A stretch of DNA of 64,000 nt. It comes from Gemmatimonadaceae bacterium. GTDB taxonomy: Bacteria > Gemmatimonadota > Gemmatimonadetes > Gemmatimonadales > Gemmatimonadaceae. The stretch is from NCBI GenBank assembly GCA_019752115.1, contig JAIEMN010000023.1, forward strand, positions 1 through 64,000. The letters are read 5' to 3'. The notes below the pieces were generated by a model, which was given only the letters and a program-made list of their open reading frames with translations, was not told where the DNA came from and ran no database searches. Below, one piece after another: positions 41,896-47,318 of this stretch. Both the position numbers and the translations under genes were made by a program. Position 1 is the stretch's first letter, and the number at the start of each line of letters is the position of its first letter.

Positions 41896-42945
41896 GTGAG
41901 CGTTGGCGTCAGCCCCACCGCCACGCCGGCGCGCAAGAAGCGCCTCGGCGTCATCGGATCGTTCGTGTGGGATGTGCTCCACGGGCGCGACAAGCGCAGT
42001 GTGCCCATCGAAGAGTGGGGCGGTATCACCTATTCGCTTTCGGCGCTCGACGCGGCGCTGACCGACGCGTGGGAGATCGTGCCGCTGGCCATGGTCGGCA
42101 ACGACCTCGTGGACAAGGCGCAGCTCTATTGCCGGGGCCTGCGCCGCATGGCCCCGGATGCGGCGCTGATCGGTGTGCCCTACCCCAACAATCGCGTCGA
42201 ACTGCGCTACCTCGACGACGAACGGCGCAGCGAGCATCTCACGGGTGGAGTGCCCGGCTGGACGTGGCTGGGGCTCAAGCCAGTGCTCGATGCGGCCCAT
42301 CTCGACGCGCTCTACATCAACCTGCTGAGCGGCTGGGAGCTGGACCTCGAAACGGCGCAGCTCATTCGCCAGCACTTCACGGGGCCGATCTACTGCGACC
42401 TGCACATGCTGGTGATGGCCGTACAGGCCGACGGGCTCCGGACGCCGCGCCCGCTGCCGGATGTCGCGGCCTGGTGCGGCTGTTTTGACGTGCTGCAGGT
42501 CAACGAAGACGAGATGCACCTGATGGCGCCCGACGCCATGGCACTGGCCGCCACGGCCATGGCCGCGGGGGTCTCGATCCTGTGCGTGACGCTCGGCAAG
42601 CGCGGCGCCGCCTACTTCGCCGCGCCCGGTGTGGAGACGCTGCACGACCGCGCGCCCCACAAACATCACAACGCTGCGCTGTCCACATCACCGCGGGGCG
42701 GGACCAGTGCGTTCGGGGCGATTCGCACGGCGCTCATTCCCGGTGTCGCGCCGCGCATCGATGGGCCCGGCGATCCGACCGGGTGTGGTGATGTGTGGGG
42801 CGCCACCCATTTCTCGCGACTGCTTGCGGGTGATAAGTTGACGGATGCCATGGCGGCCGCGAATCGGGCCGCCTCACGCAATGTCGAACATCGCGGGGCC
42901 ACCGGCCTTGCGAATCACCTCCGCGGAGAGCTCAGCACCACGTGA
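41896..42945 (+). CDS. PfkB-family carbohydrate kinase
   Basis: A 349-residue ribokinase-superfamily kinase. The N-terminal KRLGVIGSFVWDVLHG and the GG motif in EEWGGITYSLSALDAAL resemble the substrate-binding entry of the family. The C-terminal PfkB signature reads DPTGCGDVWGATHFSRLLAG, with the catalytic Asp in GCGD where most members have GAGD. The middle (VTLGKRGAAYF) fits the ATP site. The phosphorylated substrate is not evident; sugars or nucleosides are likely. It starts with GTG 11 bases after the ROK kinase stop and overlaps the next gene by four bases. Confidence 0.85.
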   Translation: MSVGVSPTATPARKKRLGVIGSFVWDVLHGRDKRSVPIEEWGGITYSLSALDAALTDAWEIVPLAMVGNDLVDKAQLYCRGLRRMAPDAALIGVPYPNNRVELRYLDDERRSEHLTGGVPGWTWLGLKPVLDAAHLDALYINLLSGWELDLETAQLIRQHFTGPIYCDLHMLVMAVQADGLRTPRPLPDVAAWCGCFDVLQVNEDEMHLMAPDAMALAATAMAAGVSILCVTLGKRGAAYFAAPGVETLHDRAPHKHHNAALSTSPRGGTSAFGAIRTALIPGVAPRIDGPGDPTGCGDVWGATHFSRLLAGDKLTDAMAAANRAASRNVEHRGATGLANHLRGELSTT

Positions 42946-43889
42946 CGACCGTCATCAGCGTGCCGCCCTCGCTCGACGAGCAGTCGTTCGAGCAGGTGAT
43001 CGAGCAGCTGGCCCCGTTGCCCGAGGATGAAAAGATCCTCGTGGACGCGCGCCATGCACGCTGGGCCTCGCCATATGGCCTCACCGCCCTGCTGTGCGTC
43101 GCGCAATCGCGTCAGCAGCTGATGGGCTTTGCGGTGCCGGAGAACCCCGACACCGTGTCGTACTGGTCGCGCACGGGGTTTTTCCGCTACGCCGCCGAGC
43201 TGTACGAAATGCACGGGCATGTGCCGCGGGCGCGCGAGGCGCACGAGAGTGACGTGCTCCTCGAGATCACGCCGATCGTGAAGAGCGACGACGTGCACGG
43301 CGTGGTGGGGCGCATTCAGCAGAAGGCCGCTGACATCCTGCACGGCCAGCTCAATCTCGATACCGCCGTGACCGGATCGTTCGGCATGACGCTCAGTGAG
43401 TCGTGCCAGAACATCGTGGAGCACGCCGGCTTGGGTGGCTGGGTCGCCGTGCAGACGTACAAGTACACGCGCCGCCTGGGCCGCCGGGTGGTCGTGATCG
43501 CGGTCTGCGATGCCGGTATGGGCTTCCGGAAATCGCTCGAAAGCTCACCGAGCCATCGCCACAGCGATCGATGGGATGACGGCATGGCGCTCGAGGATGC
43601 GGTGCTGCGCGCCGTCTCGCGTTTCCGACACGGCGACAAGGGGCGCGGCCAGGGTCTCGCCGGGATTCGCCGGTTCATCGGGCGTTGGAGCGGCAAGCTA
43701 AGCGTGCGCAGTGGCACCGCGCGCATCGCCGTCACACCCGAGTGGGATGAAGACGTGCCACTCCAGGAGAACCTGCCGTTCTTCCCGGGGTCGCAGATGC
43801 AGATCATCATCCCCGAACGCATCGGCGATTCGCCGGTGAAGGCGCGGGGCGCGCTCGCGGCCTCGCCGCGGTCGTGGAGCGTGCGATGA
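42942..43889 (+). CDS. STAS-like plus HATPase signalling protein
   Basis: A 315-residue cytoplasmic protein with an unusual order. Residues about 1-100 look like a STAS-type domain (KILVDARHARWASPYGLTAL), and residues about 115-290 are a GHKL ATPase with N box SESCQNIVEHA (Glu153, Asn157), G1 DAGMGF (190-195) and G2 GRGQGL (234-239). There is no phosphoacceptor His, so it resembles SpoIIAB/RsbW-type anti-sigma kinases or small ATPase switches rather than a sensor kinase. The GTG start overlaps the PfkB stop (GTGA), giving translational coupling. The next gene encodes a STAS-like partner. Confidence 0.78.
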   Translation: MTTVISVPPSLDEQSFEQVIEQLAPLPEDEKILVDARHARWASPYGLTALLCVAQSRQQLMGFAVPENPDTVSYWSRTGFFRYAAELYEMHGHVPRAREAHESDVLLEITPIVKSDDVHGVVGRIQQKAADILHGQLNLDTAVTGSFGMTLSESCQNIVEHAGLGGWVAVQTYKYTRRLGRRVVVIAVCDAGMGFRKSLESSPSHRHSDRWDDGMALEDAVLRAVSRFRHGDKGRGQGLAGIRRFIGRWSGKLSVRSGTARIAVTPEWDEDVPLQENLPFFPGSQMQIIIPERIGDSPVKARGALAASPRSWSVR

Positions 43890-43899
43890 GGCACGAGCC

Positions 43900-44457
43900 A
43901 TGAGCGTGCTGATCGATGTGGGCACCGTCCTCAAGGGCACGGTGTGCGATCTCTATTCGAACCTGGTGACGCGACCGACCGGCGCCGCCGTGCGCACCGC
44001 CATCGAGCGTCAGGTGGTGGAGATCGGCTCGCCGGTCGTCACCACGATCGACTTCTCGCAGGTGAACCTGCTCGATTTCTCCTGCGCCGACGAGATCGTG
44101 GCGAAGCTCCTGCTCCGCTACACCAGCGATGATGCGCCGCCGGGATATCTCACCTTCCGCGGCATCCACGAGGGCCACATCGACCCGATCGAGACGGTGC
44201 TCGAGCGGCACGGGCTCGCGTTGGTGAGTTGGCATGAAGGGGAGGCCGAGCTGTTCGGCTATGTGGACGACGACGAACGCGATCACTGGCTCGCCGTGCG
44301 CGAGCATGGCCCGGTGCGCCTCGAGGACGTGGCCCGCGTGCTGGCCCGGGATGTCGCCGAGAGCCACGCCTGTCTCGATCGGCTCACCCGTCGCCGGCTC
44401 GTGATGGCGCGGGACGATGGATACGCCATTCCGGGCTCGGTCCGGGGTGTCACATGA
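43900..44457 (+). CDS. STAS-like (DUF4325-type) protein with C-terminal winged helix
   Basis: A 185-residue protein. Residues about 30-120 resemble DUF4325/STAS-like domains (TTIDFSQVNLLDFSCADEIV at about 48-67), which pair with GHKL ATPases. Residues about 138-178 look like a winged-helix fold (VRLEDVARVLARDVAESHAC, RLTRRRLVMARDDGYAI). A STAS-type phospho-switch fused to DNA binding would be an antagonist-regulator in one chain. The start is 10 bases after the ATPase gene; its stop overlaps the next ATG (ATGA). The domain calls are inference from motif patterns. Confidence 0.6.
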   Translation: MSVLIDVGTVLKGTVCDLYSNLVTRPTGAAVRTAIERQVVEIGSPVVTTIDFSQVNLLDFSCADEIVAKLLLRYTSDDAPPGYLTFRGIHEGHIDPIETVLERHGLALVSWHEGEAELFGYVDDDERDHWLAVREHGPVRLEDVARVLARDVAESHACLDRLTRRRLVMARDDGYAIPGSVRGVT

Positions 44458-44798
44458 CCGGGCCCGGCAAGCCGGGGCGCCCGGGGGGCAAACTCGGCGT
44501 CTTCACCGGGCTCTCCCCGGCCATGCAGGTGGTGGGCTTCATCAGCACGCGCCCCGGTGACCCGGAACGGGGGCCGCTCGTGCGCATGCGGGCCGATGAC
44601 GCCCTCATTCGTCTCGTGACTCCCGGCGATTTGGTGCGTGTGGTAACCGAGCGCCGGTCCGAGATCGCGGTGCTCGAGGTCGACGACACGGTCCCCCGCG
44701 GCGGCTGCGTCCTGCGCGATGTGGTGGGGGCGTCGCTCTCCGAGATCGTTCGCATCGTCAAGGTCGATACCGATTCCCGCACCCGTCCCCGTGCCTGA
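44454..44798 (+). CDS. Small beta-rich protein of unknown function
   Basis: A 114-residue protein starting MTGPGKPGRPGGKLGVFTGL, with alternating hydrophobic strands (PLVRMRADDALIRLVTPGDL, then VVTERRSEIAVLEVDDTVPR). The pattern is faintly like a double-psi beta-barrel (molybdopterin-dinucleotide-binding or Vat-N type), but I do not claim a family. It overlaps the STAS-like gene by four bases and the PLP-fold gene by eight. Its last residues DTDSRTRP resemble the YSRxxNPT segment that usually precedes the first helix of cystathionine-type enzymes, which the next gene lacks. This may be coincidence. Confidence 0.5.
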   Translation: MTGPGKPGRPGGKLGVFTGLSPAMQVVGFISTRPGDPERGPLVRMRADDALIRLVTPGDLVRVVTERRSEIAVLEVDDTVPRGGCVLRDVVGASLSEIVRIVKVDTDSRTRPRA

Positions 44799-45711
44799 GA
44801 CGCTGTCACGCCGACTCGCCGCCCTGGAGGGCGCCGAGTCGGCTCTCGTGCTCGCGAGCGGCATGGCTGCCACCGCGTGCACCATGCTGGCGCTGCTGCG
44901 TTCGGGGGATCATCTCGTGGCCGGAACCTGGCTGCGCCCCGACACGCGGCGTTTCTGCGAACAGGCCCTGCCGGCGCTGGGGGTACAGGTCACCTTTGTC
45001 GATCCGCTCGAGGGGCGCGCGTGGCGCCGGGGGCTCACGAAAACCACCCGGGCGCTCTTTGTGGAGACGCCGGTCCTGGCCACCACGCGGGTGGTGGACC
45101 TTCGCGCTCCCCGTATGCTGGCGCAGGAGCTCGGGCTCGCGCTCATCGTGGACGCCACGGCGGCCACGCCCATCAACTGCACGCCGATCGCGCTGGGCGC
45201 CGACGTCGTGATTCACGATGCGCGCCACCTGCTGGCCGGTGATGATCGTGCCGAGATCGGCGTGGCCTGCGGGACGGAGTCGCTCATCGACGAGGTCCGG
45301 GCGCAGATGCAGCTGTGGGGGGCGGTGCCACACCCGTCGGCCGTGGCGACCCTCGCGCAAGGCGTGAGCACCCTCGATGTCCGCATCCGTCGTCAGAATG
45401 CGAATGCGCAGGCGGTGGCGGAATGGGCGACGCACTCCCCCGCCGTGTCGTCGGTCCTGTGGCCGGGATCGGCCACCCACCCCGATCACGCGCTCGCCGC
45501 CGAGCAACTGCACGGCTTCGGCTCCACGGTGGTGCTGACCCTCACCGATGCCGATCTCGCGCGGCGCGCCGTCGGGGCGCCCGAGAGCAACGGCGATGGC
45601 GCACTCACAACGCACATCGTGGCCGGCGAGACGCCGACGCAGATCCGCGTGGTCGTCGGTGTGGAATCGGCCGATGCGGCGCTGGCGTGGCTCGCCACGC
45701 GCCTCCCCTGA
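44791..45711 (+). CDS. Cystathionine-gamma-synthase-fold protein lacking the PLP lysine (pseudoenzyme)
   Basis: A 306-residue protein of the Cys/Met-metabolism PLP-enzyme family. Recognisable segments are RRLAALEGAESALVLASGMA (near the N-terminus), ALFVETPVLATTRVVDL and VDATAATPINCTPIALGADV. Where the family has HSATKYLGGH, with the Schiff-base lysine, this one reads HDARHLLAGD: His146 replaces the lysine. It also begins about 60-90 residues later than normal, so the Tyr/Arg phosphate-binding motif is absent. It therefore cannot be a conventional PLP enzyme. The GTG at 44791 overlaps the previous stop; ftsE starts 19 bases downstream. Confidence 0.75.
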   Translation: MPETLSRRLAALEGAESALVLASGMAATACTMLALLRSGDHLVAGTWLRPDTRRFCEQALPALGVQVTFVDPLEGRAWRRGLTKTTRALFVETPVLATTRVVDLRAPRMLAQELGLALIVDATAATPINCTPIALGADVVIHDARHLLAGDDRAEIGVACGTESLIDEVRAQMQLWGAVPHPSAVATLAQGVSTLDVRIRRQNANAQAVAEWATHSPAVSSVLWPGSATHPDHALAAEQLHGFGSTVVLTLTDADLARRAVGAPESNGDGALTTHIVAGETPTQIRVVVGVESADAALAWLATRLP

Positions 45712-45730: not shown

Positions 45731-46441
45731 ATGTCTGGCATTCTTCGCGTCTCCAACGTTTCCAAGGACTACCCGCGCTCGGGCCATGCCCTGCGCAACG
45801 TGTCCTTCGAGATGAACAAGGGGGAGTTTGTCTTTCTCGTGGGCCACAGCGGCGCGGGGAAGACGACGCTGCTCCGCATGCTCTCCATGGAGGAGCGCCC
45901 GTCGAGCGGCGAAGTGCGCGTCTCCGGCTACTCCAGCGCCTCCATCAAGAAGCGCGAGATCCCCCACCTGCGCCGCCGGCTGGGAATCGTATTCCAGGAC
46001 TTCCGGCTGCTCCCCGATCGCACCGCCGAACAGAACGTTGCGTTCGCGCTCGAAGTCACCGGCGCGTCGCACGGACAGATCGGCAACAAGGTGGCGCGAC
46101 TCCTCACGCAGGTGGGGCTGGCCTCCAAGGCCACCGCGTATCCGCACGAACTCTCTGGCGGTGAGCAGCAGCGGGTGGCAATCGCCCGGGCGCTCGCCAA
46201 CGACCCCTTCCTGCTCCTCGCCGACGAACCCACCGGCAATCTCGATGACCGGGCGACACACGCCATCTACCTCCTGCTCCGCGAAATCAATGCGCGCGGC
46301 ACGGCCGTGCTGATGGCGTCGCACGACATCAGCATGATTGAGCGCTCGGGGCAGCGGTTCATCGAACTCGACAAGGGCGAGCTGGTCTTCGACGGGACCG
46401 ACGTGGCGCGCCTGAAGGCCGACATGCGGGCCAAGCGATGA
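45731..46441 (+). CDS. ftsE: Cell division ATP-binding protein FtsE
   Basis: A 236-residue ABC ATPase that, with FtsX, relays cytosolic ATP hydrolysis to periplasmic cell-wall hydrolase activators at the division site. Walker A is GHSGAGKTT (38-46), the Q-loop [10 protein letters not shown], the ABC signature [15 protein letters not shown], Walker [15 protein letters not shown] and the switch His in MASHDISM. The ATG at 45731 is at the normal FtsE N-terminus ([20 protein letters not shown]); the frame extends further upstream, but only as a shadow of the PLP-fold gene. ftsX follows after 16 bases. Confidence 0.94.
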
Positions 46442-46457: not shown

Positions 46458-47318
46458 ATGAGACTTGCCTTCCGCGAGCTGCTGCTCGCCTTCAAGCGCG
46501 CGCCGCTGTTGTCGCTGCTGGGCGTCGTCACCATCGGCTTTTCGCTGTTCGCCTTCGGGCTGTTCGGGCTGGTGGCGCTCAACATTCAGAGCGCGCTCCG
46601 CAGCGTGGAAGATCGCGTCGAGATTCGCGCCTTCCTGATGGATGGCACCAAGGATGCCCAGGTCGACGAGTTGATGCGCGGCGTGGCCAAGGTGCCCGAA
46701 GTCGCCGACATCGGCTATGTCACCCCCGACTCGGCGCTGATTCGCGCCAAATCCGAACTCGAAGAGTTCCGCGACGTGATGGACGGCGCCATGCTCCCGG
46801 CCTCGGTGGAGATCCGGCTGCGCGAGGGAAAGCGTGACCCGGCCACCGTGCAGGCGGTGTCGCGCCGGCTGCAGACGTATCCGATCGTGGAAGAAGTACG
46901 CTACGGCCGCGAGTGGGTGGAAAAGCTGTACAAGATCCGCACCGTGGCCGGCATTGCCGCGACCGTGCTGGGGAGTGTGTTCGCGTTCGTGGCGGTGATC
47001 ATCATTGGCTCCACCATTCGCATGTCGATCCTGGCGCGCACGCGCGAGATCGAGATCATGCGGCTGGTCGGGGCCACCAACTGGTTCGTGCGGCTGCCGT
47101 ATCTGCTCGACGGGCTCTTCAAGGGGATCGCCGGTGGCATACTGGCGGTGGGTCTGACCTACGTGACCAGCCAGCTCGTGACCCGCCTGCTCATGAAGGC
47201 CGAGTTCTTCCACGCGAACCAGATCGCGCTGGGGATCTTGGCCGGCGGCGTGCTGGGCTTCATCGGCAGCTGGCTGTCGGTCGGACGCCACCTGCGTCAG
47301 GTCTGGCGCGACGCATGA
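46458..47318 (+). CDS. ftsX: Cell division protein FtsX
   Basis: A 286-residue FtsX/MacB-type permease. An N-terminal membrane segment (LLGVVTIGFSLFAFGLFGLV) is followed by a periplasmic domain (about 45-155, VEIRAFLMDGTKDAQVDELM) and three C-terminal membrane segments (IAATVLGSVFAFVAVIIIG, LLDGLFKGIAGGILAVGLTY, LGILAGGVLGFIGSWLSVG). A cytosolic coupling loop (RTREIEIMRLVGATNWFVRL) matches the FtsE-contact region. A GGGAG ribosome-binding site precedes the ATG. Its stop overlaps the start of the envC-like gene, giving the classic ftsE-ftsX-envC order. Confidence 0.93.
   Translation: MRLAFRELLLAFKRAPLLSLLGVVTIGFSLFAFGLFGLVALNIQSALRSVEDRVEIRAFLMDGTKDAQVDELMRGVAKVPEVADIGYVTPDSALIRAKSELEEFRDVMDGAMLPASVEIRLREGKRDPATVQAVSRRLQTYPIVEEVRYGREWVEKLYKIRTVAGIAATVLGSVFAFVAVIIIGSTIRMSILARTREIEIMRLVGATNWFVRLPYLLDGLFKGIAGGILAVGLTYVTSQLVTRLLMKAEFFHANQIALGILAGGVLGFIGSWLSVGRHLRQVWRDA

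Follow-up and report, generated by a model that had tools for sequence, protein, structure and literature searches.

Locus and gene order

The window (that is, the whole stretch of 64,000 nucleotides that was analysed, part of a Gemmatimonas genome) carries at 44791-45711, on the plus strand, an open frame with a GTG start that an earlier note had described as intact and as suggestive of a PLP-fold pseudoenzyme. The 306-residue product aligns to positions 56-307 of the 381 in the PF01053 profile (E 2.4e-63), and its score, 214 bits where the cut-off is 27, places it in the family by sequence; among proteins of solved structure it is closest to cystathionine gamma-synthase and methionine gamma-lyase (~30% identity). 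Alignment to these relatives pairs the segment HDARHLLAGD with HSATKYLSGH of P. putida methionine gamma-lyase and puts His146 (codon at 45226-45228, plus strand) in the column of the catalytic lysine, confirming the note on this point. The gene gave no PADLOC match when checked for defence-system membership.

Three plus-strand ORFs precede the gene: a 315-residue HATPase-domain ORF at 42942-43889 (PF13581, E 1.3e-4, below the cut-off), which is also found upstream in genome G027; a 185-residue ORF at 43900-44457 that reads as STAS-like by inspection and has no Pfam model above its cut-off; and a 114-residue small ORF at 44454-44798 with a weak molybdopterin-dinucleotide-binding-like match (PF01568, E 2.5e-4, below the cut-off). 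In the region 42942-44457 the HATPase ORF begins in a STAS-like manner and the STAS-like ORF behind it may end in a winged helix; this pair, though below curated Pfam cut-offs, is conserved ahead of the PLP gene and ftsE. The small ORF is kept in the genus and the family and was not recognised at order-level loci. Downstream lies the conserved plus-strand ORF at 45731-46441, beginning MSGILRV, which we take from its motifs to be ftsE, followed by ftsX (46458-47318, plus strand), also conserved in relatives.

The GTG (44791) overlaps the TGA of the small ORF (44796-44798), giving a plus-strand overlap of 8 nt (44791-44798), and the ftsE start at 45731 is 19 nt past the pseudoenzyme stop. Translational coupling had been claimed for both sides; there is overlap with the small ORF, and on the ftsE side the genes are only adjacent and coupling is possible. 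The GTG lies 19 codons ahead of the SGM motif, a position shared by most of one sub-clade, the pseudoenzyme of the window included. From the stop of the small ORF to the SGM motif there are 52 nt in the window, as compared with 239-334 nt in lysine-bearing orthologues of other genera; the N-terminal YSRxxNPT region noted as missing is thus truly absent from the DNA, which rules out an N-terminus hidden in another frame or behind a frameshift.

Where contigs permit, the orthologues in Gemmatimonas are found at this position too, with the STAS-like and small ORFs on one side and ftsE on the other. At the level of the order, a lysine-bearing PLP gene stands immediately upstream of ftsE in all 20 loci examined, with a STAS-like gene upstream in 19. 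At seven loci of other genera (L022, L045, L047, L056, L058, L063 and L068) ftsE lies ~1.1 kb further downstream, with another gene apparently between. Gene position suggests a link of the pseudoenzyme to cell division.

Active-site residues lost, retained and newly conserved

We compared 170 orthologues: 27 from Gemmatimonas, 123 from other genera of the family and 20 from the order. The catalytic lysine is present in all 143 orthologues outside the genus and absent from 26 of the 27 within it, the single exception being G007. The possibility that relatives keep the lysine, which the earlier note had raised against its own reading, thus holds only outside the genus and for one member inside it, and recent loss or sequencing error is excluded, since 25 further Gemmatimonas orthologues are also without the lysine. 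The pseudoenzyme reading is accordingly well supported, and for the genus rather than for one gene. The emphasis that the note had placed on histidine as the replacement did not survive. Ten residues occupy the site in the 26 lysine-less orthologues (valine and alanine in 5 each, leucine and threonine in 4 each, methionine in 3, and histidine, arginine, phenylalanine, glutamate and glycine in 1 each), and a comparison of orthologues for a conserved His146 found histidine in the window's species only.

The remaining cofactor contacts, numbered as in P. putida methionine gamma-lyase, with roles that we take as established, and counted over 25 Gemmatimonas orthologues, have eroded along with the lysine. 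The N-terminal Tyr59'/Arg61' clamp, through which one subunit of an active enzyme binds the PLP phosphate of its neighbour, is deleted in them, and in the window its region is gone from the DNA. The stacking Tyr114 is retained in 0/25; Asn161 survives in 1/25, the phosphate-binding Ser208 and Thr210 in 5/25 and 6/25, and the serine of the C-terminal SLGG active-site loop, a loop that is also gone from the window's protein, in 1/25. With no lysine to form the internal aldimine in the window's protein (His146) or in 26 of the 27 orthologues of the genus, and with the phosphate clamp deleted, the chemistry of the family cannot be expected from this protein, as far as its sequence tells.

In the sugar 3-dehydratases ColD and E1, histidine stands at the lysine position, as in the window's protein, and the exchange of lysine for histidine gives active enzymes (PMC8987622). 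There the histidine is conserved and catalytic, whereas His146 is one of ten residues found at its site. Because histidine is not conserved at that site, a functional His146 in the manner of ColD/E1 is very unlikely; the phosphate-binding Tyr/Arg and Ser/Thr residues are gone too, and we give next to no credence to an active enzyme that uses histidine in place of lysine.

Some positions of the former active site are well kept. Gly89, Glu157 and Asp186 are retained in 25/25 and Arg375 in 21/25, and some replacements have become conserved, among them arginine for Tyr114 and histidine for Asp246 (19/25 each). An emptied PLP pocket that now holds another small molecule, making the protein a ligand sensor, would be in keeping with the retained Glu157, Asp186 and Arg375 equivalents and with the new arginine. 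Pocket columns, however, are not enriched among the conserved ones (~3/13 kept at at least 90%, vs 29/96 of the other family-invariant columns), and the lysine site varies freely. We therefore dropped a conserved ligand pocket as a candidate and regard a ligand sensor as distinctly improbable.

Distribution, losses and selection

An orthologue was found in 27 of 30 Gemmatimonas genomes. In G012 (L284, a draft assembly) the gene is gone, and the STAS-like gene, the small ORF and ftsE are adjacent. In G027 (L285, also a draft assembly) only a short in-frame scar is left, closing with the former C-terminus and its stop near ftsE; the near relative G017, with flanking DNA ~95% identical, has an intact copy. 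In the third genome, G003, a draft assembly 59% complete, there was no orthologue match and neither neighbour was found. Since the gene is deleted in G012 and G027 while ftsE remains, the pseudoenzyme is not strictly needed for FtsE, and its role is dispensable in some lineages. One further copy, L033 (G025), is strongly diverged (branch 1.83); it has lost the SGM motif and keeps the equivalents of Glu157, Asp186 and Arg375.

In a tree built on FtsE, FtsX, EnvC and Nfo, the lysine-bearing G007 falls within the genus, with G010 and G002 next to it, and the lysine-less G008 and G019 branch off earlier than G007. (RpoB, missing from the G007 assembly, was unusable as a species marker.) These four genes reject a tree in which all lysine-less genomes are forced together (AU p 0.0008), which speaks against a single loss event, although the tree of the PLP gene itself does not reject it (p 0.23). 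The remnants of the N-terminal arm also differ between the dead copies of G008/G019 and that of G010. As regain of a whole active site is unlikely, the simplest reading of the sequences is that the lysine was probably lost three or four times independently. Multiple losses are favoured rather than proven, because the gene's own tree allows one, because the G007 assembly is a draft, its contig starting within the PLP gene, and because replacement by recombination is possible.

The results on selection indicate that the lysine-less proteins are constrained. In 13 pairs of lysine-less orthologues, dN/dS by a pairwise counting method is 0.05-0.27 (0.06-0.28 in the comparison of reading frames); in the same pairs ftsE has 0.01-0.08, and the value for the pseudoenzyme, usually higher than that of ftsE, is yet far below 1. 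Because it exceeds that of ftsE and of the STAS-like gene in most pairs, constraint on the pseudoenzyme is relaxed relative to its neighbours. Substitutions in the tested pairs concentrate at the third codon positions of the annotated frame, which is without stops, and the five other frames all hold stops; constraint imposed by an antisense gene (a minus-strand ORF at 44806-45615) is thereby rejected. A broken frame or a dN/dS near 1, as in a pseudogene, is not what these copies display, the gene being deleted in G012 and G027, however. Catalytic residues lost and a protein kept by selection are expected of a pseudoenzyme, and both are found here.

Two explanations that require no function of the protein bear on these data. 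According to the first, the ORF is kept merely for translational coupling of the small ORF to ftsE; the short distances on its two sides (8 nt of overlap, 19 nt of spacing) would suit such a role, as would the short frame that the scar in G027 retains, with the old stop near ftsE. Coupling needs no conserved amino-acid sequence, yet dN/dS is low throughout, and in G012 the small ORF is followed by ftsE with no PLP gene between them; this explanation seems to us highly improbable. According to the second, the gene is in slow decay without present function, its catalysis redundant and its remains heading for deletion. Deletion in two lineages keeps decay alive as a rival, and the intact copy in G017 beside the scar in its near relative, the relaxed constraint, the strongly diverged copy L033 and the presence of paralogues are all in its favour. 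Decay fits poorly, however, with open frames, intact or contig-cut, in 26 lysine-less genomes across deep divergence, with dN/dS that is low in the most closely related pairs too, although a dead gene would there be expected to come near 1, and with residues that have become newly conserved. We judge decay unlikely.

The predicted model has a pLDDT of 93.8 and a pTM of 0.91, a confidence that owes something to the supplied alignment, which contains active relatives. Superposed on methionine gamma-lyases it gives a Z score of 39.7 and 1.7 A over 300 residues, and it has fold type I, as do active PF01053 enzymes. Outside the lost active-site elements, the fold is predicted to be intact.

A proposed retained role apart from catalysis

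We consider it fairly probable that the pseudoenzyme is clade-wide and has been retained for a role without catalysis, probably in protein binding, which its ftsE-linked ancestor already had. The gene would have descended in place from a full-length enzyme of the cystathionine gamma-synthase family, ftsE-linked throughout the order. Because catalysis appears to have been lost repeatedly while the protein was retained, with paralogues covering the chemistry, we infer that a second role, one independent of catalysis, goes back to the ancestor; binding of another protein would be its simplest form. With the chemistry in the hands of other paralogues, catalysis would have been free to decay, probably several times, and the binding scaffold would have been retained. 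Our first guess, made from gene position only, is a partner in or near the co-encoded HATPase/STAS/FtsEX cluster. The regulatory or scaffold role that the earlier note had proposed is thus plausible, given purifying selection and order-wide linkage to ftsE, and would be dispensable in the two lineages that have deleted the gene beside a retained ftsE.

In a broader proposal, which we hold only as a tentative one, the PLP enzyme linked to ftsE in Gemmatimonadales would have a non-catalytic role that has gone unrecognised and is connected with its operon, in FtsEX-type control of the cell wall or in a HATPase/STAS switch. A single genus would have given up catalysis several times, which would leave a graded natural series of active enzyme, differently truncated dead proteins and scar.

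The binding partner could instead be an enzyme of the same family. PF01053 proteins form oligomers whose subunits share active sites, and the window's genome also has full-length, lysine-bearing family members. By analogy with LCB1/SPTLC1, the inactive subunit of serine palmitoyltransferase (PMC3794620), the pseudoenzyme might join such an active paralogue to inhibit, stabilise or tune it. The active paralogues are encoded elsewhere, however, and loss of the N-terminal arm removes residues that a partner site would need, and we think an inactive subunit of this kind improbable. LCB1/SPTLC1 resembles the pseudoenzyme as a fold-type-I PLP protein without the lysine (PMC3794620), but belongs to another family, is eukaryotic and has a known active partner with which it is encoded as a pair.

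What sets the Gemmatimonas locus apart is that one genus has, at one genomic place, an active form, several inactive forms that are under selection and have eroded in different ways, and deletions. Closely related species thereby serve as natural mutants, and the question of what the enzyme does besides catalysis can be put directly.

Pseudoenzymes and lysine-less PLP proteins are known kinds, and we know of few PLP pseudoenzymes. In a literature search that covered for the most part freely available papers, we found no PLP pseudoenzyme of the cystathionine gamma-synthase family, let alone a genus-wide, lysine-less one under selection, and nothing on Gemmatimonas and FtsE. The protein is like the cystathionine gamma-synthase/methionine gamma-lyase family in its ~30% identity, predicted fold, SGM motif and equivalents of Asp186 and Arg375, and differs from it in having no catalytic lysine, N-terminal Tyr/Arg arm, stacking tyrosine or SLGG loop. 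With the lysine-bearing orthologues of other Gemmatimonadales genera it shares its place (STAS-like gene, PLP gene, ftsE) and 41-57% identity; those proteins, in contrast, are full length, with a complete active site. A precedent for the role proposed here is E. coli MalY, a PLP-fold protein with a regulatory role independent of catalysis: MalY represses MalT through direct binding, for which its lyase activity is not required (PMC11203769). Unlike the pseudoenzyme, MalY has kept its active site, belongs to a different PLP family and has a known partner, MalT.
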